From contig DATKNH010000082.1 in NCBI GenBank assembly GCA_035541455.1, forward strand, positions 1 through 62,282: a DNA stretch of 62,282 nt, in the 5' to 3' direction. The notes beneath the pieces are model-generated. The model ran no database searches, was not told where the DNA came from, and saw only the letters and a list, made by a program, of their open reading frames with translations. The DNA comes from Syntrophorhabdales bacterium (lineage in GTDB: Bacteria > Desulfobacterota > Syntrophorhabdia > Syntrophorhabdales > WCHB1-27). This document shows positions 11,981-26,218 of this stretch, in pieces. Position numbers and translations under genes: made by a program. Each line of letters begins with the position of its first letter. Position 1 is the stretch's first letter.

Positions 11981-11996
11981 TGGCATTCTTATTGCT
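11981..11996 (+). promoter_or_regulatory. Sigma-54 (-24/-12) promoter
   Basis: TGGCATTCTTATTGCT matches the TGGCACG-N4-TTGCW consensus with the GG and GC elements at the exact required spacing; only the C and G after TGGCA differ. Transcription would begin near 12007, about 44 bp before the ATG at 12051. The surrounding 308-bp intergenic region (11743-12050) is AT-rich and carries no gene. Confidence 0.72.
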
Positions 11997-12050: not shown

Positions 12051-13046
12051 ATGGAAAAGAAAGTGTTACTAATCGACGACGAGGCATCTTTGAGAAGGCA
12101 CGTGACCCTGGGTCTTATGCAACAAGGATACTACACCGAGCCGTGTGAGAATGGCATGAAGGGGTTGGAGACGCTCAACATGTTCAAGAGAAAGAACACC
12201 CCCCTGGACTGTGCCATAGTTGACGTGAGGCTCCCTGACATTGACGGTATCAAGCTACTGAAGGTGATAAAGCTGAACTATCCGCAACTGCCGGTCATTA
12301 TCATTACCGGCCACGGCGACGCCGCAGTAGAAGAGGCAGTGAAAGCAGAGCGGGCTGATGGCTACCTGGAAAAACCGTTCACGATGGAAGAGCTGACCGA
12401 GCTGCTCGAGCAGGTACCCACACCGGCGCCAGCGCCCAAGAAAGAAGAGACGACGGCCCCGGTTCAGTCGTACAGCGCGTACGCCCTGGTGACACTCGAT
12501 GCAAAGGCTGATATCCTTGAGGCATATCGGACCCTCTACTTCCAGGAGAACGTTCTGTACTGCGATGCCATCAGGGGAGACCACGACCTGATGCTTCTCC
12601 TGCAGGCTGAAACGCCCGAGGCGATTCGGGAAGTTGTCGATACGAAAATAAAGATGGTTAAAGGCGTGACCGATATAACGATGCTCAATGTGGATTCCCC
12701 CATGTTCGGAGAAAATGTGGTCGATATCATCGGCTCTGTTGATAAGGCTCTCGGCCGCGAAAAAGAAGAAGGTGAAGTTTACTCGAACCAGACAGCCCGG
12801 ACCAGGACGTCATCCTATGTGCTGCTCGAAATCGAAAAAGAGAAGCTCGCCAGCATCTACCCATCCCTCTACTTCGATGACCAGGTTGTGTACTGCGACT
12901 GCACAAGGGGCAAATACGACATCGTACTGCTCATGAAAGGCACGAGCTTCGCAGAGATCGGCAATATTGTCAAGAACAAGTTCAAGCAGATGGACGGCGT
13001 GCTGAGAGTGAAGGAATGGCCTATAATCACGCTCCTTGAGATGTAA
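12051..13046 (+). CDS. Receiver-domain protein with tandem RAM (Lrp/AsnC ligand-binding)-like domains
   Basis: The 331-residue protein starts with a full receiver domain (about 1-120): acidic pair Asp9/Asp10, phosphorylation site Asp58 (AIVDVRLPDIDG), Thr in IIITGHGD and Lys in YLEKPF. A Pro-rich linker (PTPAPAPKKE) leads to two similar domains, about 145-225 and 250-331. They share the words EAYRTLYFQENVLYCDAIRG and ASIYPSLYFDDQVVYCDCTRG and resemble the small-molecule-binding beta-alpha-beta fold at the C-terminus of Lrp/AsnC regulators. No DNA-binding motif is visible, so it may act by protein contact. AAAGGAG precedes ATG 12051. It is first behind the sigma-54 promoter and leads the electron-transfer operon. 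Confidence 0.8.
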   Translation: MEKKVLLIDDEASLRRHVTLGLMQQGYYTEPCENGMKGLETLNMFKRKNTPLDCAIVDVRLPDIDGIKLLKVIKLNYPQLPVIIITGHGDAAVEEAVKAERADGYLEKPFTMEELTELLEQVPTPAPAPKKEETTAPVQSYSAYALVTLDAKADILEAYRTLYFQENVLYCDAIRGDHDLMLLLQAETPEAIREVVDTKIKMVKGVTDITMLNVDSPMFGENVVDIIGSVDKALGREKEEGEVYSNQTARTRTSSYVLLEIEKEKLASIYPSLYFDDQVVYCDCTRGKYDIVLLMKGTSFAEIGNIVKNKFKQMDGVLRVKEWPIITLLEM

Positions 13047-13219: not shown

Positions 13220-13726
13220 ATGGCGACGAAAGAGCAGACTAAACAGGAACAGAGCGGCAACGGATTTTCCAATTTCAAAGTTGAGCTGTGGAAGTACCAG
13301 GGCGAAATGGGCGCCCTCATACCGCTTCTGCAGTCGGCCCAGGAAACGTACGGCTACATACCGGAATCAGCCATCGACCACATCAGCGAGGTCGTGGGTA
13401 TTCCGTCTGCTGACATCTACGGAGTCATCACCTTCTATTCCCAATTCCGGCTCAAACCGATGGGAAAGAATATTATCAAGATTTGTGATGGCACTGCCTG
13501 TCACGTAAACGCATCCACTGCCATACTGCGAACGGTCGAAGACGAGTTGAAGCTCGAAGGTGACGAGACAACGGAAGACGGGCTCTTCACCGTGCAGAAA
13601 GTTGCCTGCCTGGGTTGCTGCTCGTTGTCACCCGTGCTCATGATCAACGAAGAAACACACGGAAAGCTGACACCGAAAAAAGTCACACAGCTGCTCAAAG
13701 AATACCGCGAGGACTCGAAAGACTAG
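13220..13726 (+). CDS. NuoE/HndA-like [2Fe-2S] subunit
   Basis: A 168-residue thioredoxin-like ferredoxin of the 24-kDa complex I subunit family. The four cluster ligands are Cys89, Cys94 (CDGTACHVN) and Cys130, Cys134 (CLGCCSLSPV). The preceding helical domain (LIPLLQSAQETYGYIPE, then IPSADIYGVITFYSQF) is also standard. With the NuoF-like protein downstream it forms an NAD(P)H-oxidising module as in HndAC or HydBC. The ATG at 13220 follows AAGGGAGATACTTG. A TTG at 13217 is in frame but less likely. Confidence 0.9.
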   Translation: MATKEQTKQEQSGNGFSNFKVELWKYQGEMGALIPLLQSAQETYGYIPESAIDHISEVVGIPSADIYGVITFYSQFRLKPMGKNIIKICDGTACHVNASTAILRTVEDELKLEGDETTEDGLFTVQKVACLGCCSLSPVLMINEETHGKLTPKKVTQLLKEYREDSKD

Positions 13727-14002: not shown

Positions 14003-15769
14003 ATGAAGACGATCAAGGTAGGCCTAGGCACCTGTGGTGTATCCGCCGGCGCCGAAAAGACGTTTGAAGCGGTAAAACTGGAGATAGAGAAGCAGAATAT
14101 CCAGGTCGTGCTCAAGGAGACAGGATGCAACGGGATGTGTTTTCGCGAACCGCTGGTGGAAGTGATCGACGAGTCCAACCACTCGTTCCTGTACGGCGAT
14201 GTCACGCCGGAAAAGGCGCAACGCATCATGACGGAACACGTGCTCGGCAATACACCCGTGAAAGAGTGGGTCGTGCAGAACTCGGGGCCTTCCGGGGACG
14301 ACACTTTTTTCCAAAAACAGCGGAGGATCGTTCTCAGAAACTGCGGGGTCATCGACCCAAATTCCCTGGATGAGTATATAGCTGTCGGGGGCTACGAGGC
14401 CATCCAAAAAGTATTGAAAGAATACACGCCTGAACAAGTGATAGAAATCATCACCAACTCCGGCCTGCGCGGCAGGGGCGGCGGCGGATTCTTAAGCGGC
14501 GTAAAATGGAAGTTCTGCCGCCAATCACCGGGTGACAAGAAGTACATCATCTGCAATGCGGACGAGGGCGACCCCGGAGCTTTCATGGACCGCAGTACCC
14601 TGGAGAGCGACCCTCACTCGGTACTGGAAGGCATGATGATCTGCGCCTATGCCATCGGCGCCGACGAGGGCTATTTCTACGTCAGAGCCGAATACCCGAA
14701 GGCTGTGCAGCGGCTGAAGCATTCCATCAGGGAAGCACTCAGCAGAGGATTCCTCGGAAAGAAGATCTTCGGCTCTGATTTCAATTTCTCCGTGAAAATC
14801 AAAGAGGGCGCTGGTGCTTTCGTCTGTGGCGAAGAAACCGCGCTCATCGCGTCAATCGAAGGCAAACGGGGCATGCCGCGGTTCAGGCCCCCCTTCCCCG
14901 CAAACAAAGGCCTTTGGGGCAAACCCACGAACATCAACAATGTGGAGACGTTCGCCAACGTTCCCTGGATCATCATGAACGGAGCAGAAGCCTTTGCCTC
15001 CATGGGAACCGAGAACAGCAAGGGCACTAAAGTGTTCGCTCTCGCAGGGAAGATCGCACGGGGCGGGCTGGCCGAAGTTCCTATGGGCATCACCATTAAA
15101 GAGATCGTCTATGATATCGGCGGCGGCATAAAGGACGGCAAGAAGTTTAAGGCGGTGCAGATGGGCGGACCTTCGGGAGGATGCATCCCTGCTTCCATGG
15201 ACGACCTGCAGATAGACTACCAACAGATCAACAAGACAGGCGCCATCATGGGCTCCGGCGGCCTCGTCGTCATGGATGAGACCACGTGCATGGTCGACAT
15301 GGCCAAGTTCTTCCTCCGTTTCACACAGGACGAATCCTGCGGCAAATGTACCTTCTGCAGAATCGGCACAAAGCGCATGCTCGAGGTACTCGAGAGGATC
15401 ACCGACGGAAAAGGCAACGAAAAAGACATAGAGCTGCTCAGAGACCTTGCATATCAGATCAAGAATAATACCATCTGTGGTCTCGGACAGACAGCGCCAA
15501 ACCCGGTTCTCACCACCTTGAAATACTTCCCTGAGGAATATGAGGCGCATATACGCGAAAAGAAGTGCCCGGCCCACAGCTGCGCGGCGCTGGTCAGTTA
15601 CACGATAAGCCCTACTGCCTGTAAGGGATGCGCCATGTGTGTCAAGGCTTGCCCCTCCGAAGCCATTAAGGGAGAGAAGAAGAAGGCACACGAAATAAAT
15701 CCGGAGCTTTGCGTCAGGTGCGGGAAGTGCTATGAAACGTGCAAGTTTGATGCAGTGATTAAGGATTAA
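14003..15769 (+). CDS. NuoF/HndC-like flavoprotein, NAD(P)H dehydrogenase subunit
   Basis: A 588-residue protein with the domain order of HydB/HndC: thioredoxin-like ferredoxin (Cys11, Cys42, Cys46), the NuoF FMN and NAD(H) domain (RGRGGGGFLSGVKW and NADEGDPGAFMDRSTLE), an SLBB domain, a [4Fe-4S] site (ESCGKCTFCRIGT) and a C-terminal 2x[4Fe-4S] ferredoxin (CKGCAMCVKACP, CVRCGKCYETC). It oxidises NADH or NADPH, or reduces NAD(P)+, and passes electrons along its clusters. No hydrogenase follows; the partner is the large fusion protein downstream. The start is set by AGGAGAG ahead of ATG 14003; upstream frame is inside repeat copy A. Confidence 0.9.
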   Translation: MKTIKVGLGTCGVSAGAEKTFEAVKLEIEKQNIQVVLKETGCNGMCFREPLVEVIDESNHSFLYGDVTPEKAQRIMTEHVLGNTPVKEWVVQNSGPSGDDTFFQKQRRIVLRNCGVIDPNSLDEYIAVGGYEAIQKVLKEYTPEQVIEIITNSGLRGRGGGGFLSGVKWKFCRQSPGDKKYIICNADEGDPGAFMDRSTLESDPHSVLEGMMICAYAIGADEGYFYVRAEYPKAVQRLKHSIREALSRGFLGKKIFGSDFNFSVKIKEGAGAFVCGEETALIASIEGKRGMPRFRPPFPANKGLWGKPTNINNVETFANVPWIIMNGAEAFASMGTENSKGTKVFALAGKIARGGLAEVPMGITIKEIVYDIGGGIKDGKKFKAVQMGGPSGGCIPASMDDLQIDYQQINKTGAIMGSGGLVVMDETTCMVDMAKFFLRFTQDESCGKCTFCRIGTKRMLEVLERITDGKGNEKDIELLRDLAYQIKNNTICGLGQTAPNPVLTTLKYFPEEYEAHIREKKCPAHSCAALVSYTISPTACKGCAMCVKACPSEAIKGEKKKAHEINPELCVRCGKCYETCKFDAVIKD

Positions 15770-15846: not shown

Positions 15847-18800
15847 ATGGCTGCGAAACTAAAAGTTACGATCAATGGTAAAGAATATTCGGCCAATCCC
15901 GGTCAGACTATCCTCGAGGTTGTGAGGGAGCACCAGATCGACGACATCCCCACGCTCTGCTATGACCCTAAGCTCCCCCCTTACGGTTCGTGCTACCTCT
16001 GCGTGGTGGAAGTACAGGGACTCGAGAAGCTCGTTCCATCCTGTGCGAGTCCTGTTTCTGACGGAATGGTGATTCACACAGACAACGCCCGGATCAAGCA
16101 ATCGAGAAAAACCGCACTGGAACTGCTTCTCTCCAATCACTACGCCGACTGCCTTGGTCCCTGCACCCAGACTTGCCCGGCAGGTGTAGACGTCCAGGGC
16201 TACATCGCACTGATCGCGGCAGGAAAATACAGGGAAGCTGTCAAGCTGATCAAGGAGAAGAACCCCCTACCCCTTGTCTGCGGAAGGGTCTGCGTCAGGG
16301 AATGCGAGAACGCGTGCCGGCGTAACTTAGTAGATGAACGGGTGGGCATCGATTACCTGAAGCGGTACGCTTCAGACTTAGACATCGAAGATCCATGGGT
16401 ACCCGTAACACAACCTTCCAGCGGGAGAAAAGTTGCGATTATCGGGGGCGGGCCGGCCGGACTTACTTGCGCCTACTTTCTTGCTCTGAAAGGACATGCG
16501 CCCACAATCTTCGAACAGTCGCCGGCATTGGGCGGCATGCTCCGTTACGGCATCCCCGAGTACCGACTCCCGAAGAAGATGCTCGATAGGGAAATCAAGT
16601 GGATTACGGACCTTGGTGTGGACGTAAAAACCAACACTACCCTCGGCAAGGATGTCACAATCGAGTCCCTCAAGAAAAACGGCTTCGATGCCATCTTCGT
16701 AGCTATAGGTGCGCAGAAGGCCAAGGGTATGGGTCTTGACGGCGAAACAAAAGTTCCCGGCGTGATAGGGGGCGCCGACTTTCTGCGCAGCATGCAGGCA
16801 GCGACAGACGAAGGCAAGCCGAAAGTATTCGGCCGTGTAGTCGTGGTCGGCGGAGGCAACACCGCTATTGACGCTGCGCGCACATCGCTTCGCCTCGGTG
16901 CCGCAAAGGTGACCATCCTCTACCGGAGAACCCAGAAGGAGATGCCTGCCAATGAGATGGAAATCGAGGCTGCCATCGATGAAGGGATCGAGATGGTCTT
17001 TCTCTCAGCGCCAACAGCCATCGTCACAAAAGATGGCCGCTTGCGCGGGCTGCAGTGTATCCGCATGGAGCTGGGTGAACCTGATGCGAGCGGTCGCAGA
17101 AGCCCGGTTCCCATTCAAGGCTCCGAATACCTTCTGGAGTGTGATTTTGTCGTATCGGCAATAGGCCAGGATATTGAACTCGGAACTATCGCCGCCGACG
17201 GTCAGTTGAAGACAACGCGGTCGAAAGCCATTCAAACCAACAAGGCTACATTCGAGACGTCGATACCCGGGGTCTTTGCAGGCGGCGACGCAATCACAGG
17301 ACCGGCTGTGGCCATTGACGCTATAGCACATGGCAGGATGGCTGCCGAGGCAATCGACGGCTACATGCGGGAAGGAAAAGCTAAAACGGAGAGCGCAGGA
17401 TTCGTGAGCCGCAAGGAGAGCTTCGGAGACCTGGCCGAAAGCGATTTTGTGCAGTACCCGAAAATCACCAAAGAAAAGATGCCCGAACTGCCAGTTGCCG
17501 AGCGTATAAGGAATCTGGCGGAGGTTGAGGTCGGTTTTGCTGAGGCACAGGCGTACAACGAGGCGTCCCGCTGCCTTGAGTGCGGCTGCTCCGCCTACTT
17601 CGACTGCGCGTTGAGAAAGTATGCAACCGACTTTGGCGTCGATCTTACCAAGTTCGTAGGAGATGTCAGGAAATACAAAATTGACCGGGATCACCCGTTT
17701 ATAGCGCTCGATCCCAACAAGTGCATCTCCTGCGGCCGATGCGTGAGGACGTGCTCGGAGATACTCAAGATCTCCGCCCTCGGCTTCGTCTATAGAGGGT
17801 TTAAGTCCGTGGTGAAGCCATCCATGGAGAAAAAGCTTCTCCAGACTAACTGCATTTCGTGCGGGAATTGTATCGGCGCCTGCCCCACAGGTGCCATAAC
17901 GGAAAAAGTACCTTTCGCCAAGCCCGGGCCATGGACATCCGAGGAGATCGAATCCGTCTGCTCCTTTTGCTCACTCGGCTGCAACCTCAAATACAAGGTA
18001 TTCCACGATCACCTCTTTTCCATCGCGCCCACAAACGGCGCGTCGCACAACAAAGGCTACCTCTGCCCGAAGGGGAGGTTCGGCTACAGGTACATGCTCG
18101 ACGAATCCCGTCTTCTGAAACCCAAAATCAAGAAGAGAGGTGAATACAAAGAGGTGACGTGGAACGAAGCCCTCGACTATGCCGCAACCAAGGTCAAAGG
18201 GATCATTGAAGCCTACGGTTCAGGATCGGTCGCGGTCCTCGGATCGCCGCGCATGACAAATGAAGAGCTCTATCTCCTGCAGAAAATGGCGCGGGTCGGG
18301 CTCAAGACCAACAACATCGGCAGCTTCAGCAACCTGCTGAATGGAGTCGAGCAGGATGCGCTGGATGACATGTTCGGCATCACTACCTCCACGGCCACGA
18401 CAGATGATCTGGCGGGCGCAGACCTGATCCTGGTAGTGAATGCGGAGCTGTCGGAGGAAAGTCTCGTGGCTGAGCTTAAGATCAAGGCAGCACAGAGGAA
18501 CGGCGCGCAGCTGGTCACGGTCAGTTCTTCGGAGGTGGAGCTCAACAAATTCGCGGATCTCTGGATTGATGCAAAACGCGGCACGGTAACAGCCCTGCTG
18601 CAAGGCATGTCAAACACTGTCATCGGCAAGGGGCTGGCAGACACCGATTACATCAAGAAGAGAACCGAGGGCTTTGACGCATTCAAGGAATCGATTACAA
18701 ATCTGAACACCAGCGGTGTTTCCGAGCTCACAGGTGTGAGCAAAGAAAGAATTACGAAATTGTATGACCTCATAGCAAAGCCCGATCAGAAGATTATTGT

Positions 18801-19623
18801 CGTGTACAATATTGATTCGCTATGGGAGAAGTCGAGTAACGATCTCAGAGCAATAGGCAACTTCCTCTTGCTCACCGGGCGAATCGGCAAGCCGGGCAAC
18901 GGACTCATACTCTTGAGAGAGTATGCCAATTCCCAGGGGCTCTTCGATATGGGAGCAGACCCTCGTTATCTTCCCGGCCATATCCGCCCTGAAAATACAA
19001 AAGGCGTAAAGGATCTATCCTCGTTGTGGGGCGTTGATCTGACTCATATCTTCACACCTACTGACCTCAAAGAACAGCTGGAAGGAGACAGGATCAAGGC
19101 TCTTCTCGTATTCGGGGAAGATCCTCTGGCTGCGGCCCGCAACGTGAGGCTCACTGGCGGCATTGAATTTATGCTCGTACTCGATTATTTCATGACGCCG
19201 ACCGCCATGGAAGCAGACGTGGTGCTTCCCGCGTCGCTACCTATTGAGACCGGCGGCTCTTTCACTGCGTGCGACCGAAGGGTGCAGGAAACCAAGGCGA
19301 TATTTGCGCCACGTAGCGGGATGGAGAGCTGGCAGATAATCACGGGGCTCGCGAACAGGCTGGGCACCCCCTTTAAATACAAATCGGCAAAAGACGTAGC
19401 CTCTGAAATTCGCTCTGCAATTCCTGCCTACGGGGCTACGAAGTCAGGATTATTCTGGGGGCAGCCTATTTTTGAAAAAGGATTCATGACGCCAGACGGG
19501 AAAGCAAAGTTCAGCATTCTTAAGATAGATCTTTCCCCGTGCAGTGTCGAAAAGAAACAGTATGTCTCGTCAGAAAACTACTTCCGGACGAACGTCAAGG
19601 GCAGGCTGACGAGCCAAGCCTAA
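15847..19623 (+). CDS. Ferredoxin-GltD-molybdopterin oxidoreductase-like fusion (NuoG/SfrAB-like)
   Basis: This 1258-residue protein joins three units. (1) An N-terminal [2Fe-2S] ferredoxin (Cys38, 49, 52, 66). (2) A GltD-like NAD(P)H:FAD unit: cysteine-rich segment near 98-165, FAD site GGGPAGL near 199, NAD(P) site VVVGGGNTAID near 333, and GVFAGGDA near 474. (3) An FdhA/NuoG-like part: [4Fe-4S] motifs near 626 and 669, CSFCSLGCN near 705, then a molybdopterin-oxidoreductase domain to the end. The latter aligns with formate dehydrogenase at TNEELYLLQKMARVGLKTNN, but the Cys/Sec and His become Leu and Asn (NLLNGV). Formate chemistry is therefore unlikely. From memory, separate GltD-like and FdhA-like chains form SfrAB of Geobacter. 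Confidence 0.85.
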   Translation: MAAKLKVTINGKEYSANPGQTILEVVREHQIDDIPTLCYDPKLPPYGSCYLCVVEVQGLEKLVPSCASPVSDGMVIHTDNARIKQSRKTALELLLSNHYADCLGPCTQTCPAGVDVQGYIALIAAGKYREAVKLIKEKNPLPLVCGRVCVRECENACRRNLVDERVGIDYLKRYASDLDIEDPWVPVTQPSSGRKVAIIGGGPAGLTCAYFLALKGHAPTIFEQSPALGGMLRYGIPEYRLPKKMLDREIKWITDLGVDVKTNTTLGKDVTIESLKKNGFDAIFVAIGAQKAKGMGLDGETKVPGVIGGADFLRSMQAATDEGKPKVFGRVVVVGGGNTAIDAARTSLRLGAAKVTILYRRTQKEMPANEMEIEAAIDEGIEMVFLSAPTAIVTKDGRLRGLQCIRMELGEPDASGRRSPVPIQGSEYLLECDFVVSAIGQDIELGTIAADGQLKTTRSKAIQTNKATFETSIPGVFAGGDAITGPAVAIDAIAHGRMAAEAIDGYMREGKAKTESAGFVSRKESFGDLAESDFVQYPKITKEKMPELPVAERIRNLAEVEVGFAEAQAYNEASRCLECGCSAYFDCALRKYATDFGVDLTKFVGDVRKYKIDRDHPFIALDPNKCISCGRCVRTCSEILKISALGFVYRGFKSVVKPSMEKKLLQTNCISCGNCIGACPTGAITEKVPFAKPGPWTSEEIESVCSFCSLGCNLKYKVFHDHLFSIAPTNGASHNKGYLCPKGRFGYRYMLDESRLLKPKIKKRGEYKEVTWNEALDYAATKVKGIIEAYGSGSVAVLGSPRMTNEELYLLQKMARVGLKTNNIGSFSNLLNGVEQDALDDMFGITTSTATTDDLAGADLILVVNAELSEESLVAELKIKAAQRNGAQLVTVSSSEVELNKFADLWIDAKRGTVTALLQGMSNTVIGKGLADTDYIKKRTEGFDAFKESITNLNTSGVSELTGVSKERITKLYDLIAKPDQKIIVVYNIDSLWEKSSNDLRAIGNFLLLTGRIGKPGNGLILLREYANSQGLFDMGADPRYLPGHIRPENTKGVKDLSSLWGVDLTHIFTPTDLKEQLEGDRIKALLVFGEDPLAAARNVRLTGGIEFMLVLDYFMTPTAMEADVVLPASLPIETGGSFTACDRRVQETKAIFAPRSGMESWQIITGLANRLGTPFKYKSAKDVASEIRSAIPAYGATKSGLFWGQPIFEKGFMTPDGKAKFSILKIDLSPCSVEKKQYVSSENYFRTNVKGRLTSQA

Positions 19624-19675: not shown

Positions 19676-21748
19676 ATGCAGATGAGGGCGCGAAAAGAGG
19701 GCAGAGTCGTGAAGGCTACCCGAAGCCTTGAAGAAATCAACTACGATCTGCAGAAACGCGTCCAGGAGCTCGAGTGTCTCTACCGCATAAGCCCCGAGCT
19801 CGAATCTAACGCCGATCTCAAAGACAGACTCACCAATTCTATTGGGTACCTCCTAAAGGGCCTCCAGTATCCCGAAATCGCCAAAGCATCGATCTGGCTG
19901 GATGGTATCGAGTACTCAGCAGACGGCCCATCCACGTGCCAGGATAGCGTTAACGTTTTCTCATCCGACATCCTCGTTGAGGGAAAGGATAGAGGGAGAG
20001 TCGAAGTCTGCTACACAAAAAACGCCGATTTTCTTCCCGAGGAAAAAAAACTGATCAATGAGGTAAGCAGGAAGATTTCGAAATGGATTGAGAGAGAAGA
20101 ACTGCACTCCGAACTCCAAAAATATGTGCGCAGACTCGAGGAGTTGGTCGAGGAAAAGACGAGTGAGTTGGAGAAGTCCAAGAAGCGATATAAGGATCTT
20201 TTTGAGGACGCTCCTGTCCCTATGCTCTTTTCAAGATTCAACGGGGATATCATAAAGGCCAACAGAGCCTTCTACCAGTTGTTTGATTACCCCGAAGACG
20301 GCTCTGTCCATCTCAATTTCGTCAAGGATAAGCTGTACGAAGACATGGAGGCCAGGAAAACCATTTACAAGAAGCTCATGGAACAGGGCAGAGTCGACAA
20401 CTTCGAACTCGCGCTGCTCGATCGTAACGGGGCGCCCATTCCTGTCGCAGGCTCTTACATTTTTATCGACATCGACGGCGAGCGCTGCGTGGAATCTGTC
20501 TATAAAGACCTTAGACTGCGTAAGGAGCTGGAACAAAAGCTCATTGAGCAGAACGAAAATCTGGAGAATATGGTACGGACACGGACCCTTGACCTCGAAA
20601 ATCAGAAGGACCTCCTGATCAGAAAGAACCATGAGCTGATGACGCTTACTGAAAAACTGAGGGAGAGCAAGAGCAGAGTCCAGATTCTCTTCAATGCCAT
20701 CACGGACGCGGTGACGGTTATCGATCACGACCTGAATATCCTGATGTCGAACCAGAAAAACATCGGGAACAAGGGAAAATGCTACAAGAAAGTCTTTAAC
20801 AGGGAACAGCCATGCGACGATTGCCTTGTGGCACGGGTTTTTGAACAGAAAACCTCTGTCCGGCAGGAAAAAGAGATAGACGACGGACACTATCTGTTAC
20901 AGGCATACCCGATTCTCGACGCAAAAGGCAATGTTGAGGCAGCGCTTGAGATTTCCCGTGTGATCACAAAAGAGAAGAACCTTGAGCGGCAGCTTCTGCA
21001 GGCCGACAAACTCGCATCCCTGGGGCAGCTCGTTTCAGGCATCGGCCACGAGATCAACAACCCCAACACCTTCATCCGCGGCAACCTCTACATCATTCAG
21101 GAAGCGATGAACGACATTTTTCCTATCCTGGACCAGTACCATAAATCGAACCCGGACGCCAGGATAGCTCGCCTGGATTATGACATTTTCCGACAAAGCG
21201 TGCCTGTTCTCATTGAAGATATGGTGCAGGGCGCCAATCGTATCAAGGGTATTGTGGACGGTCTGCGGAAATTCGCAAAAAAAGATGAGGGCCTCCTCAA
21301 TGAAACAGTTAATATCAATACCATCACCGAAGCGTGCCTGCGGCTTGCCGACAACCAGATTCGGAGAACAGCCGATGTGAAAGTCAGCCTGGACCCGGGC
21401 CTGCCTTCGATCACGGGGAACTCTCAAAAGTTACAGCAGGTCATTGTCAACATACTGATCAACGCCTCCCAGGCCATCGACAAGCAACGCGGCACGATTC
21501 ACGTCATGTCCCAGTCTACGGACAAAGAAGTGGTGCTCAAAGTAAAGGACGACGGCAAGGGAATGGATGACCGCATCTTGAGACAGATTTTTGACCCCTT
21601 CTTCACCACAAAGCGTCACCAAGGCGGAACAGGGCTCGGTTTATCGATTGCGTATGGAATCATCAAGGAGCATCAGGGCCGCATAGAGGTGGAAAGCAAA
21701 GCAGGCATGGGAACAACCTTCAGCATCTACATCCCCAGAAACATCTGA
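19676..21748 (+). CDS. PAS-domain sensor histidine kinase (NtrB-like)
   Basis: A soluble sensor kinase of about 690 residues with no membrane segments. An N-terminal GAF-like region (about 20-150) is followed by a coiled coil, a PAS domain (about 180-300), a second coiled coil and a PAS domain with a cysteine motif (CYKKVFNREQPCDDC) that could bind metal or sense redox. The kinase core has H-box His458 (GQLVSGIGHEINNP), N-box VNILINASQAID, G1 DDGKGMD and G2 GGTGLGLSIAYGI. It most likely phosphorylates the NtrC-type regulator 8 bp downstream. The start is uncertain (ATG 19676, ATG 19682 or GTG 19709). Confidence 0.9.
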   Translation: MQMRARKEGRVVKATRSLEEINYDLQKRVQELECLYRISPELESNADLKDRLTNSIGYLLKGLQYPEIAKASIWLDGIEYSADGPSTCQDSVNVFSSDILVEGKDRGRVEVCYTKNADFLPEEKKLINEVSRKISKWIEREELHSELQKYVRRLEELVEEKTSELEKSKKRYKDLFEDAPVPMLFSRFNGDIIKANRAFYQLFDYPEDGSVHLNFVKDKLYEDMEARKTIYKKLMEQGRVDNFELALLDRNGAPIPVAGSYIFIDIDGERCVESVYKDLRLRKELEQKLIEQNENLENMVRTRTLDLENQKDLLIRKNHELMTLTEKLRESKSRVQILFNAITDAVTVIDHDLNILMSNQKNIGNKGKCYKKVFNREQPCDDCLVARVFEQKTSVRQEKEIDDGHYLLQAYPILDAKGNVEAALEISRVITKEKNLERQLLQADKLASLGQLVSGIGHEINNPNTFIRGNLYIIQEAMNDIFPILDQYHKSNPDARIARLDYDIFRQSVPVLIEDMVQGANRIKGIVDGLRKFAKKDEGLLNETVNINTITEACLRLADNQIRRTADVKVSLDPGLPSITGNSQKLQQVIVNILINASQAIDKQRGTIHVMSQSTDKEVVLKVKDDGKGMDDRILRQIFDPFFTTKRHQGGTGLGLSIAYGIIKEHQGRIEVESKAGMGTTFSIYIPRNI

Positions 21749-21755
21749 GGCGAGC

Positions 21756-23120
21756 GTGAACAAGATTCTCGTTATCGACGACGATCAGGCCGTTCTCAAC
21801 TACCTGAATATTTTCCTGCTGCAGACAGGCTCTTTCGATGTCACAACACTCGCAAACAGCACCAGGGCTTACGACCTGCTCAAGTCCAACCGCTATGATC
21901 TCCTGCTTCTGGATATGGACATGCCCGATGTCACCGGGATCGATATCCTCAAGAATGTCCAGGAAAATAATATCGACGTTGAAACAATCGTGTTGACAGG
22001 TGTCGAAGATATCGAGCTCGCGGTCTCGGCCATGAAGCTCGGGGCCCACGAGTACCTTGTAAAGCCGGTTGATAACGACCGGCTGCTCTCGCTCATCAAC
22101 AGCGTGCTGGAGAAAAGAAAAAGCCACAAGATCATCGACCAGGAAGTCACGGTTTCCGCCGATCTCAAATTTAAGGATGCCTTCAAGGACATCGTGACGC
22201 AGGATGAGAAACTGAACAAGATTTTCTCCATCGTTGAAAAGATGGCCCAGACGGACAGCAGCATTCTGATCTGGGGTGAAAGCGGCACCGGCAAAGAGCT
22301 GATAGCAAGAGCTGTCCATAAAATCAGCAAGAGAAGCAAGAACGGCTTCGTGGCGGTGAATGCCGGTACGTTTGCAAACGAACTCTTTGCTTCTGAGTTT
22401 TTCGGCCACAGCCAGGGCGCATTTACCGGCGCAAATTCAAACAAGAGAGGATTTCTGGAAGAGGCCGACAGGGGAACGCTCTTTCTGGACGAGATCGGAG
22501 AACTGGGTCTCCCCATACAGGTGAAGTTGCTCAGGGTCTTGCAGGAAGGCGAATTTTTCCGCCTCGGCTCCACAAAGAATCTGAAGGTGGATGTCAGAAT
22601 TATCGCCGCCACCAACAAGAATCTGCACGAAGAGATAAAAAAGGGGAATTTCAGAAAAGACCTTTTTTACCGCCTCAACATGAATTCGGTCTATCTGCCG
22701 CCGCTGAGGGAAAGAAAAGGTGACATTCCTCTTTTGTGCATGCATTTTCTGAAGAAGTTCTGCCTGTTGAACGATAAGAAAATAGATAAGATCACCGACC
22801 CTGCCATGCGGCTTCTTGCCAATTACGATTATCCCGGAAACGTCCGGGAACTGATGAACATCATCAACAGCGCGGTTATTGTTGAATCGACGAATGAGAT
22901 CAGAAAGAAATCGCTCCCCCACTACTTCCTCGAGGATTCGTCGGTGCTTTCCGACGCAGGTCCCATGGAAATGCCGCTCAAGACATTGGAGGATGTGGAG
23001 AAAAATCACATCAAGAAAATTTTGAGCTATACAAGCGGCAACAAAACAAAAGCGTCGCAGATTCTTGGCATATCAAGAGTCAACCTCATCGCGAAGGCAA
23101 AGAAGTACAAACTCGATTAA
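21756..23120 (+). CDS. NtrC-family sigma-54-dependent response regulator
   Basis: A 454-residue activator with the full NtrC layout. Receiver: acidic cluster at 8-10, phospho-acceptor Asp53 (LLLLDMDMPDVTG), Lys in LVKPVD. AAA+ domain: Walker A GESGTGKE, the sigma-54-contacting GAFTGA loop near 222-227, and Walker B GTLFLDEIGEL. C-terminal Fis-type helix-turn-helix: NKTKASQILGISRVNLIAK. It starts at GTG 21756 after GAGGCGAG and is surely co-transcribed with the kinase. The -24/-12 promoter at 11981 heads the same gene string, so this protein probably activates its own operon through the TGTAAA cluster; that link is inference. Confidence 0.93.
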   Translation: MNKILVIDDDQAVLNYLNIFLLQTGSFDVTTLANSTRAYDLLKSNRYDLLLLDMDMPDVTGIDILKNVQENNIDVETIVLTGVEDIELAVSAMKLGAHEYLVKPVDNDRLLSLINSVLEKRKSHKIIDQEVTVSADLKFKDAFKDIVTQDEKLNKIFSIVEKMAQTDSSILIWGESGTGKELIARAVHKISKRSKNGFVAVNAGTFANELFASEFFGHSQGAFTGANSNKRGFLEEADRGTLFLDEIGELGLPIQVKLLRVLQEGEFFRLGSTKNLKVDVRIIAATNKNLHEEIKKGNFRKDLFYRLNMNSVYLPPLRERKGDIPLLCMHFLKKFCLLNDKKIDKITDPAMRLLANYDYPGNVRELMNIINSAVIVESTNEIRKKSLPHYFLEDSSVLSDAGPMEMPLKTLEDVEKNHIKKILSYTSGNKTKASQILGISRVNLIAKAKKYKLD

Positions 23121-23284
23121 CCTCAAAATCTTCTCGACCGCACGCAGCAGAGCCCGTACACTAGGTGGCATCCTTGGCCTGCGCGCATACACAATTGCGG
23201 GCCCGCGCAGTGTTGCACTTTCCCTCATTGCCCGATGACATAGATTTCGAGAGTGATTACATTTCTGCAGAGGCAGTCTGCGAC

Positions 23285-26218
23285 ATGTCCAAACTCTCAC
23301 GCCGTCAGTTTCTTAAAGCAGCTTGCGTCGCAGGAACAAGCGCGCTCGTCGTCGGCTGCACTGACATGACGACAAGGCTGATCCCCTACGTGACTGCACC
23401 TGAAGACATTGTTCCGGGAGAGGCCACGTGGTACGCGACCACGTGCCGCGAATGTCCTGCGGGCTGCGGCTTACTGGCGAAGAATCGTGATGGCCACATC
23501 ATCAAAGTAGAAGGCAACCCCGCTCATCCGGTGAACACGGGCAAAGTATGTCCGCGCGGGCAGGCCTCTGTCCAGGGCATATATAATCCGGATCGCTATC
23601 CTCAACCCTTCACCAGAAACTCGCGCAACAAACTGACGCGTGCTTCGTGGAAAGATGCGGAGCAGATTCTCGTGCAAAAACTCATCCAGTTGAAACAGGC
23701 AAATAAGAAAGGTCGGATTGTTTTTCTTACCGGCCTTGTGACAGGAAGCCGAAAAGAACTGATCGGGCGATGGTCTTCGGCACTTGGCGGCGAGCACCTG
23801 ATGTATGAGCCCATCGCCTACGAAGTGCTGCGTAAAGCAAATCAGGTTGTATTCGCTAAACCTCTCATCCCGACCTATCGTATTGATCAGGCCGATTTCC
23901 TCCTCTCCTTCGGCGCCAATTTTCTCGAATACTGGATCTCAAATGTGCAGTTCACCCGTCAATTCGCCCAGTTCCATGAACCAAAGCCCGGCGGCGTCAA
24001 AAATATCTTCGTGTACGTAGGTCCTCGTCTTTCAATGACAGCGGCGAACGCCGACCACTGGCTTGGCGTGCCAGCAGGCACGGAATCTCTCGTGGCGCGA
24101 GCACTGCTCGGCATGGCCGCAAAACATGCACGGACTGGGCCAGGTCAGGAGATAACGCCTGATCTTCTTCAGACGCACACAGGAGTGAGTCCCGAGCGGC
24201 TCAGATTCATAGCGAATGAGCTGAGCAAAGCAAAGAATCCGCTCATTCTTTCGGAAGGTGCAACTTTCCAGGACCCGAACGCGTTCCAGACAGCAGTGGC
24301 TGCCAATATGCTGCAGTCGAACTCACCGTCACGAACCACTATTGATTGGGGAGATCCCGTCTCGCTCAGTGACGTGCTCTATGCAGCGCAAATGAAGGAG
24401 CTTACCGACAGGATGGCAAGCGGCGAAATAGACGTTCTCGCCATCGATAGCGCGAACCCGATCTTCCATCTGCCTGCATCGTGGGGCTTTGAGAAGGCGC
24501 TTCAACGCGTCCCGCTCATCGTCTCTTTTTCCTCCTATCCGGATGAGACAAGTTCTTTTGCACATATCATCATGCCGACCCACACCTTCCTCGAAAGCTG
24601 GGGTAATTACAGTCCGCGTTCCAGCGTGAATGGCGTGCTGCAGCCGGTGATGGGCCCGATGTTTGCGACCAGGTCCCTTGAGGACATTCTCCTGTCAACA
24701 GGCAAACAGTTTTCGGGTAATGAAGCATTTCCGGAAAAAGACGCGTATGATCTGGTCCGGAAGTTCTGGAGCAAAGGCGGGAAGGGACAGGCAGCTGCCG
24801 ATACTGACACCTTGTGGGAAGAGTACGTGCAGCGAGGAGGAGTATGGACAACCAGTAAGGATGAGTCCTCCGGTGCTCAAGCTGCAGCAGCCGGCCGCGG
24901 CGCAGCCGAATTCCGATTCTCTGCACTCCCTGAAATGCCTGCCGAAGGCTCTTTGAAAACGTGCGCTTTCATCACGTATCCGACAACCCAGTTCTTCGAT
25001 GGCAGAATGGCCAACCGGCCGTTTTTGGAAGAAATGCCCGACCCTATGACAATGGTACCCTGGGAAGGGTGGCTCGAAGCCAGTCCGCGTACAGCCGAGT
25101 TGCTCGGCGTGAAGCAAGGCGATATGCTCACGGTGCAATCGAGCAATGGCACGCTTGACGGTCCTGTATATATCTATCCCGGGCTTGTCGATTACGCTGT
25201 CGCCATGCCTTTCGGCCGCGGGCACAGCGATTCGTTCGGCCGATATGTTGCCGACGATAAGATCGGCAACCCTTTGCGGTTGATCTCCTCTCAAACTGAT
25301 GCTGCCGGCGGCCTGGTCTGGTCCATAGCTCCGGTTAGCCTGAAGAAGAAAGGCGGATTCATCGGCCTCGCCCGCGCTGACGGCAGCGGCTATCAGCACC
25401 AAAGGCGTCTCGCACGTGACATTTCATTGAATGAATTCAGAAATTCCACAGGCGAGAAGCCTGATATTGTGATGCCCCTTCCTGAAGGGTGGCGTGAAGA
25501 TGTTGATTTTTATCCGAAGCATCATCATGGCGACTACCGCTGGGGTATGGCAGTAGATCTGGACCGCTGCATCGGGTGCCAGGCATGTGTCGTCGCCTGC
25601 TATGCTGAGAACAATGTGGGGATTGTCGGCAAGAAGAATTTTCTCAAAGGGCGTGAGATGTCATGGATCCACATCGAGCGCTACTTTGAGCAGGATCAGC
25701 CCTTGGTGCGCTTCCTTCCGGTGCTCTGTCAGCACTGCGATGAGGCGCCCTGCGAATCGGTCTGCCCTGTGTTCGCTCCCAACCACAGCGAGGAGGGAAT
25801 CAACAATCAGGTGTATAACCGCTGCCTCGGAACACGGTTCTGTAACCAGAACTGCCCGTGGAAGGTGAGAAGGTTCAACTGGTTTACCTTTCATCATGAT
25901 AAGCCTCTCAACTGGCAGCTTAATCCGGATGTGACAGTGCGGGAAAAAGGTGTGATGGAAAAGTGTTCCTTCTGTATCCAGCGGATCTCTGACGCGCGAA
26001 CAAAAGCCATCAGCGAGCACCGTCTCATTCGCGATCTTGAATTTCAGCCGGCCTGCGCGCAGACGTGCCCTGCTGACGTTCTCGTATTCGGCAACCTGAA
26101 AGATCCGAATAGCCGCGTATCACAGTTGATCAGGCAGGCACGTACTTACCAACTGCTGGGCGGCCTCAACACGAAACCGGCAGTCTTTTATTTAAAGAAA
26201 ATTATCCACCAGGTTTAA
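23285..26218 (+). CDS. actB: Alternative complex III subunit ActB (molybdopterin-like + ferredoxin fusion)
   Basis: A 977-residue exported iron-sulfur protein. The Tat leader has SRRQFLK followed by CVAGTSALVVGC. The N-terminal two-thirds is molybdopterin-oxidoreductase-like with one [4Fe-4S] motif (CRECPAGC...CPRGQ). ActB proteins are known to lack the molybdenum cofactor. The C-terminal part has ferredoxin motifs CIGCQACVVAC, CQHCDEAPCESVCP, CNQNCPWK, CSFCIQRI and CAQTCPADV. This fused form is the hallmark of ActB. It relays electrons from quinol in ActC to cytochromes. The ATG at 23285 begins the Tat leader; a longer frame to 23165 lacks support. A GCGGGCCCGC palindrome at 23197-23206 lies in the 164-bp leader. 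Confidence 0.9.
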   Translation: MSKLSRRQFLKAACVAGTSALVVGCTDMTTRLIPYVTAPEDIVPGEATWYATTCRECPAGCGLLAKNRDGHIIKVEGNPAHPVNTGKVCPRGQASVQGIYNPDRYPQPFTRNSRNKLTRASWKDAEQILVQKLIQLKQANKKGRIVFLTGLVTGSRKELIGRWSSALGGEHLMYEPIAYEVLRKANQVVFAKPLIPTYRIDQADFLLSFGANFLEYWISNVQFTRQFAQFHEPKPGGVKNIFVYVGPRLSMTAANADHWLGVPAGTESLVARALLGMAAKHARTGPGQEITPDLLQTHTGVSPERLRFIANELSKAKNPLILSEGATFQDPNAFQTAVAANMLQSNSPSRTTIDWGDPVSLSDVLYAAQMKELTDRMASGEIDVLAIDSANPIFHLPASWGFEKALQRVPLIVSFSSYPDETSSFAHIIMPTHTFLESWGNYSPRSSVNGVLQPVMGPMFATRSLEDILLSTGKQFSGNEAFPEKDAYDLVRKFWSKGGKGQAAADTDTLWEEYVQRGGVWTTSKDESSGAQAAAAGRGAAEFRFSALPEMPAEGSLKTCAFITYPTTQFFDGRMANRPFLEEMPDPMTMVPWEGWLEASPRTAELLGVKQGDMLTVQSSNGTLDGPVYIYPGLVDYAVAMPFGRGHSDSFGRYVADDKIGNPLRLISSQTDAAGGLVWSIAPVSLKKKGGFIGLARADGSGYQHQRRLARDISLNEFRNSTGEKPDIVMPLPEGWREDVDFYPKHHHGDYRWGMAVDLDRCIGCQACVVACYAENNVGIVGKKNFLKGREMSWIHIERYFEQDQPLVRFLPVLCQHCDEAPCESVCPVFAPNHSEEGINNQVYNRCLGTRFCNQNCPWKVRRFNWFTFHHDKPLNWQLNPDVTVREKGVMEKCSFCIQRISDARTKAISEHRLIRDLEFQPACAQTCPADVLVFGNLKDPNSRVSQLIRQARTYQLLGGLNTKPAVFYLKKIIHQV

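Follow-up and report, generated by a model that had tools for sequence, protein, structure and literature searches.

The window, the whole stretch of 62,282 nucleotides that was analyzed, carries on its plus strand a StnC-like fusion gene whose reading frame runs uninterrupted from an ATG at position 15847 to a stop codon ending at 19623 (1258 amino acids). The Pfam profiles found were Fer2_4 (residues 3 to 80), Fer4_20 (104 to 181), and Pyr_redox_2 (195 to 496) in the N-terminal half and Fer4_Nqo3 (617 to 685), Molybdop_Fe4S4 (701 to 750), and Molybdopterin (PF00384, 755 to 1170; 130 bits against a cut-off of 24) in the C-terminal half. From the N to the C terminus, the protein consists of a [2Fe-2S] ferredoxin, a GltD-like [4Fe-4S]/FAD/NADPH unit, NuoG-type Fe-S domains, and a molybdopterin oxidoreductase-like domain. 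This is in good agreement with a first-pass annotation of this DNA, which had placed a ferredoxin, an NADPH:FAD GltD-like unit, and a molybdopterin oxidoreductase domain in one chain. The closest PDB sequences were those of Caldicellulosiruptor Nfn-ABC (9bov, 936 bits) and Sporomusa ovata StnC (8oh5, 832 bits), with E values down to 2e-280, far beyond chance.

The GltD-like FAD/NADPH unit with its adjoining cysteine motif spans residues 104 to 580 (16156 to 17586, plus strand; PF14691, PF07992) and harbors, in translation, an FAD motif (AIIGGGPAG) and a GxGxxA motif of the NADP(H) type (VVVGGGNTA). In the window protein, the ferredoxin, GltD, NuoG, and formate dehydrogenase (FDH)-like parts all keep their Fe-S ligands, which are invariant across the StnC set, as are the HxxxCxxxCxxxCP motif (His98, Cys102/106/110) and the CxxCxC motif (Cys576/579/581/587), neither of which is specific to Stn. 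An alignment of 82 sequences further showed that StnC Lys170, on the FAD-side cluster, and Arg239 are both kept (Lys172 and Arg233 in the window). Active FDH fusions carry both residues as well, and K170/R239 were therefore rejected as StnC markers.

Two genes precede the fusion on the same strand, giving the order stnA-stnB-stnC, as in S. ovata. The StnA-like protein (13220 to 13726, 168 amino acids; PF01257) is of the NuoE/HydC/HndA type, and its best PDB matches are Nfn/Stn and HydC-type chains (9n5u_C, 9bov_C, 8a6t_C, 7t2r_C, and 8oh5_A). The StnB-like protein (14003 to 15769, 588 amino acids; PF01512, PF10589, Fer4) is of the NuoF/HydB/HndC type and best matches 9bov_B (854 bits), 9n5u_B (849 bits), and 8oh5_B (847 bits). 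In the blocks compared, every cysteine from position 429 on and His516 match S. ovata StnB (8oh5_B); by sequence, the FMN site region, the Zn-site region, and the sites for the NuoF-type cluster, the extra [2Fe-2S] cluster, and the two C-terminal [4Fe-4S] clusters are present. These genes correspond to the HndA- and HndC-like neighbors that the annotation had named.

Upstream of stnA lies a gene for a 330-residue protein with a response-regulator receiver and an Lrp/AsnC ligand-binding (RAM) domain (12054 to 13046, plus strand; Pfam PF00072, PF01037), and homologues precede stnA in three other loci (L018, L019, and L096). Downstream of stnC, on the plus strand, are a PAS-containing histidine kinase identified by Pfam (19676 to 21748, 690 amino acids) and an NtrC-type sigma54 activator with a receiver (21756 to 23120, 454 amino acids; PF00158, PF00072, PF02954). 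A homologue of the kinase comes after stnC in 10 of the loci examined from the window clade, some of which are overlapping fetches of one locus, and one of the activator follows the kinase wherever the flank is long enough. A sigma54-like -24/-12 site, TGGCATTCTTATTGCT, with one mismatch to the consensus, is located at 11981 to 11996 (plus strand) and precedes the receiver/RAM gene by 73 bp. The window-wide count of such matches was not significant (28 versus 31 expected), and the support for the site is its conserved position, 73 to 81 bp before the first gene in all three loci with this region available: it recurs in L019 (one mismatch), a near relative of the window, and in L018 (no mismatch), which offers the more independent comparison. 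In the window clade, stnABC is flanked downstream by the PAS kinase and NtrC-type activator genes and upstream, where sequence is available, by the receiver/RAM gene with its sigma54-like promoter. This conserved arrangement predicts a dedicated, possibly autoregulated control of the transhydrogenase.

Adjoining the stn locus, a gene for a 1017-residue molybdopterin-like and Fe-S protein (23165 to 26218) is followed by one for a 447-residue membrane protein. The pair looks like the beginning of an operon for alternative complex III (Act).

The FDH-like domain of the fusion

The FDH-like domain (residues 701 to 1258; 17947 to 19620, plus strand; PF04879, PF00384) keeps its [4Fe-4S] ligands (Cys705/708/712/740) and the lysine beside this cluster. 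Where Sec/Cys-His would be expected, it harbors Leu831-Asn832 (18337 to 18342, plus strand), as the annotation had read it. Indeed, C386-H387 of R. capsulatus FdsA faces this Leu-Asn pair, while R587 faces Arg1024 (18916 to 18918, plus strand), the retained equivalent of the catalytic arginine; in the 82-sequence alignment, the window has SNLLNG in place of the motif CAR.[U/C]H (one PAR.UH) of the active homologues. The Mo-dinucleotide cap domain (PF01568) was not found in the window protein, while related active fusions scored 106 and 99 bits in the same scan, and the score for formate dehydrogenase alpha (TIGR01591) was 390 bits, below the cut-off of 666.

The annotation had named close characterized homologues with formate or other catalytic activity, or an alternative cysteine ligand, as evidence to the contrary. 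Neither turned up: the Sec/Cys-His pair is absent from all 48 full-length fusions with a dead domain described below, and no cysteine of the window domain aligns at or beside the Mo-ligand position. Outside the cluster, the domain has only Cys1142 and the unconserved Cys1232. The former is conserved in 11/11 members of the window clade and not outside it, and some 310 residues separate it from the ligand position; both were rejected as alternative ligands, being far from the catalytic position in sequence.

The domain nevertheless keeps 58% of the 98 columns that are invariant in active FDHs. An AlphaFold2 model (mean pLDDT of 79, the Fe-S segment and C-terminal tail being modeled with low confidence) gave a TM score of 0.86 to E. 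coli FdhH (1aa6) and of 0.75 to S. ovata StnC. In sequence and predicted fold, the domain resembles real FDHs more than it resembles the StnC relic, and because of the two TM scores the relic looks less eroded here than in S. ovata StnC. Across StnC proteins this domain is the least conserved part, while in active fusions it is the most conserved one, a reversal that fits relaxed constraint. An active formate dehydrogenase was rejected on the basis of the catalytic residues, the missing cap domain, and this reversed pattern.

Two classes of fusion and their phylogeny

We surveyed 395 genomes of the window's phylum and 299 of the phylum to which a Clostridium record belongs, together with loci from earlier searches, and recovered 82 distinct full-length fusions. 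Thirty-four of them have the motif CAR.[U/C]H (one PAR.UH) and the catalytic arginine; in most, the catalytic position is an in-frame TGA and the tail runs to about 170 residues, and the flanks scanned for the 34 (about 1.5 kb to several kb) contained no StnAB homologues. The other 48, including the window, are without both the Sec/Cys and the His, and their tail is short or missing. Where the flanks of these dead-domain fusions were examined, StnB lies directly upstream, and so does StnA where the flank reaches; for Firmicutes this linkage rests on L046 and published clusters, the flank scan having left out the Firmicutes-type L125 to L154. Within this group, the catalytic loop is deleted in Firmicutes-type StnC and of full length in the window clade. 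The fusions therefore form two classes, one with an intact Sec/Cys FDH and no StnAB in the flanks examined, the other with a dead FDH domain and StnAB.

The active class (class I; L059, L062 to L091, L031, L036, and L047) comprises Fd-GltD-FeS-FdhA proteins of about 1370 to 1390 residues with an intact Sec (in-frame TGA) or Cys site and a cap domain, which are probably NADPH-linked formate dehydrogenases or CO2 reductases. We found no description of them in the open-access papers searched, which is weak evidence. In L107 (1124 to 9861), a class I fusion lies directly downstream of genes for acetyl-CoA synthase/CODH beta, CdhD, and a pterin-binding methyltransferase, suggesting a role in the Wood-Ljungdahl pathway. 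Another, with Cys at the FDH site, is found on a large Photobacterium plasmid record (L047, 4989 to 9140).

In the FDH-domain tree, a starred branch with a support of 100 parts all real FDHs, fused or not, from all StnC domains. In the tree of the N-terminal 690 residues, an unstarred branch with a support of 93 puts all StnC on one side; within StnC, a Firmicutes-type clade (100, starred) stands against one that contains the window (99, starred). A tree of the GltD part did not resolve StnC monophyly, and a monophyletic active class could be neither established nor rejected (p-AU 0.395). Taken together, the FDH-domain and N-terminal trees are consistent with a single loss of catalysis in the StnC lineage. 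The window falls in a StnC branch outside the Firmicutes type, whose relic is less eroded and retains the loop and the catalytic arginine.

The two branches also differ around S. ovata C114, a residue near the Lys-ligated cluster. Of the 26 Firmicutes-type StnC, 20 have this cysteine, each time together with an isoleucine at the equivalent of window position 145, while all 22 non-Firmicutes StnC examined have Val or Ile at position 116 and a strictly conserved Cys at 145 (in the window, Val116 and Cys145; the latter at 16279 to 16281, plus strand). One Firmicutes-type protein, L136, shows the non-Firmicutes pattern, with Cys at 145. The two cysteines never occur in one protein, and the 34 active fusions lack both. 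This pattern was noticed post hoc and largely follows the two clades, so that it represents few independent events. C114 is not strictly conserved, and since published homologues lack it too (PMC10482914), it is not a defining Stn feature. We infer that C145 may substitute for C114; the mutually exclusive cysteines offer a simple mutational handle on the tuning of the Lys-ligated cluster.

Fusions of the Fd-GltD-FeS-FdhA (Sec) type, probably NADPH-linked, are still common in the window's phylum. StnC might derive from, or share a fused ancestor with, such a Sec FDH fusion; the joining of StnAB would have made the formate site redundant, and the FDH domain would have decayed to a scaffold, least so in the window branch, while a new cysteine beside the Lys-ligated cluster would have arisen at 114 in Firmicutes-type proteins and at 145 in the window branch. 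This scenario is tentative, and we give it somewhat less than even odds, but it would give the "non-functional" FDH domain of StnC a concrete history, and the active sister fusions are there to be assayed.

Assignment to StnABC and comparison with known systems

Because the best PDB matches of StnC and StnB are Nfn-ABC and StnABC chains, we assign the gene trio, with a probability of roughly 90%, to StnABC (Nfn-Bfu, Type 1 Bfu), an electron-bifurcating NADH-dependent Fd:NADP+ oxidoreductase. The gene order, the conserved cluster ligands of StnC and StnB, the loss of the FDH pair and cap, and the low conservation of the FDH-like domain also speak for this assignment. S. ovata StnABC has been characterized biochemically (PMC7483475) and structurally (PMC10482914) and placed in the Bfu family (Schut et al. 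2022, PMC9304861). The idea of a transhydrogenating or bifurcating complex of NADH, NADPH, and ferredoxin, put forward in the first-pass annotation, is thus supported, as the closest solved and assayed relatives, StnABC and Nfn-ABC (9bov), are of that kind. The full fusion, which the annotation took to be unusual, had already been published: S. ovata StnC combines the same parts in one chain, and its FdhF domain had been described as inactive. Against the assignment speak the non-specificity of K170/R239, the valine in place of C114, and the closeness of the FDH-like domain to real FDHs.

By homology, NADP(H) would exchange electrons with the FAD of the GltD-like part of StnC; these would travel along the StnC Fe-S clusters to the FMN in StnB, and StnA and StnB would distribute them to, or collect them from, NAD(H) and ferredoxin. 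A likely direction in an anaerobe would be Fd(red) + NADH + 2 NADP+ -> 2 NADPH. The C-terminal domain would be a non-catalytic relic devoid of Mo/W and is probably retained for assembly, since domain deletion and cluster mutants in S. ovata suggest so. Kumar et al. 2023 (PMC10482914) described the FdhF-like domain of StnC as catalytically inactive and its clusters as a non-functional branch that stability or assembly seems to require.

Could the FDH-like domain instead bind a Mo/W pterin and act on formate or another substrate via unusual ligands, as part of a molybdopterin enzyme coupled to NuoE/NuoF? The invariant columns that it keeps, including the catalytic Arg and the cluster-side Lys, its fit to FdhH, and the conservation of Cys1142 in the window clade would agree with such an enzyme. 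However, Sec/Cys and His are replaced by Leu-Asn at positions where relatives on the branch vary freely, the dinucleotide domain is absent, Cys1142 is remote and unconserved beyond the clade, and the domain is the fastest-evolving part of the protein, which leaves this reading very improbable.

Barely more probable is a non-bifurcating NADPH:acceptor oxidoreductase of the SfrAB type, an option also raised in the annotation, with NuoE/NuoF serving only as an NADH branch. The GltD and NuoG/FdhA-like parts of the fusion do resemble SfrB and SfrA, and isolated S. ovata StnC oxidizes NADPH with artificial acceptors (PMC7483475). This option fits less well, however: the window StnB keeps the extra cluster ligands that non-bifurcating NuoF homologues are reported to lack (Schut et al. 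2022, PMC9304861), StnAB precedes the dead-domain fusions wherever the examined flank was long enough, and SfrA and SfrB are separate chains. The complex was not placed in SfrAB, since it has the parts on one chain with adjacent NuoEF genes, nor in NfnAB, since no DHOD-B-like NfnA partner (PF10418) accompanies the GltD unit; PF10418 had no match on the window contig (C82) and matched on contigs C73, C16, C123, and C160.

On another contig of the window's genome, an NfnA-type protein is encoded beside a GltD-like one, and Stn and Nfn may coexist in this organism, unlike in acetogens, where they are reported to be nearly mutually exclusive (PMC7483475). The same genome (G000) contains StnABC-type modules in rearranged form, namely a NuoE-like gene, a NuoF-GltD fusion of 1050 residues, and a Sec-containing FdhA (C123, 102739 to 96395; L098, L099). 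On the same contig (87827 to 82466; L098), a NuoE-like gene is accompanied by a second NuoF-GltD fusion (1020 residues) and a 586-residue protein that, by its ends and an Fe-S match, looks like a [FeFe]-hydrogenase subunit. Additionally, a NuoE/NuoF/NuoG-like set (NuoG-like protein of 757 residues) adjoins an NfnA-type (PF10418) and GltD-like pair (C16, 26100 to 33000; L097) and is a possible further bifurcating complex.

The kind of enzyme and its fusion are already known; the main new points are the proposed evolutionary origin, the putatively relocated cysteine, and the conserved gene-control neighborhood. A characterized acetogen enzyme is hereby extended to a second and deep branch, made up of bacteria that are mostly uncultured. 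Like the window, S. ovata StnABC (8oh5, 8oh9) has the three-gene layout, the fusion, the Lys/Arg residues, the cluster ligands, and an inactive FDH-like domain. However, its StnC is shorter (1172 versus 1258 residues), and the window keeps the FDH loop and the catalytic Arg, has Val for C114 together with Cys145, and carries the receiver/RAM, kinase, and NtrC-type genes at its locus. Nfn-ABC of Caldicellulosiruptor saccharolyticus (9bov, 9bp5) is the best sequence match for the window StnC and StnB, but its FDH-like domain is more eroded, as in other Firmicutes-type members. Class I fusions (e.g., L059 and L107) share the domain order from the N terminus to the FDH domain and the Lys and Arg of the GltD unit; unlike the window, they have active FDH residues and the cap, no StnAB nearby where examined, and neither C114 nor C145. 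SfrAB and NfnAB share the GltD-like NADPH unit, the former consisting of separate chains with no NuoEF module and the latter having a DHOD-B-like NfnA partner.
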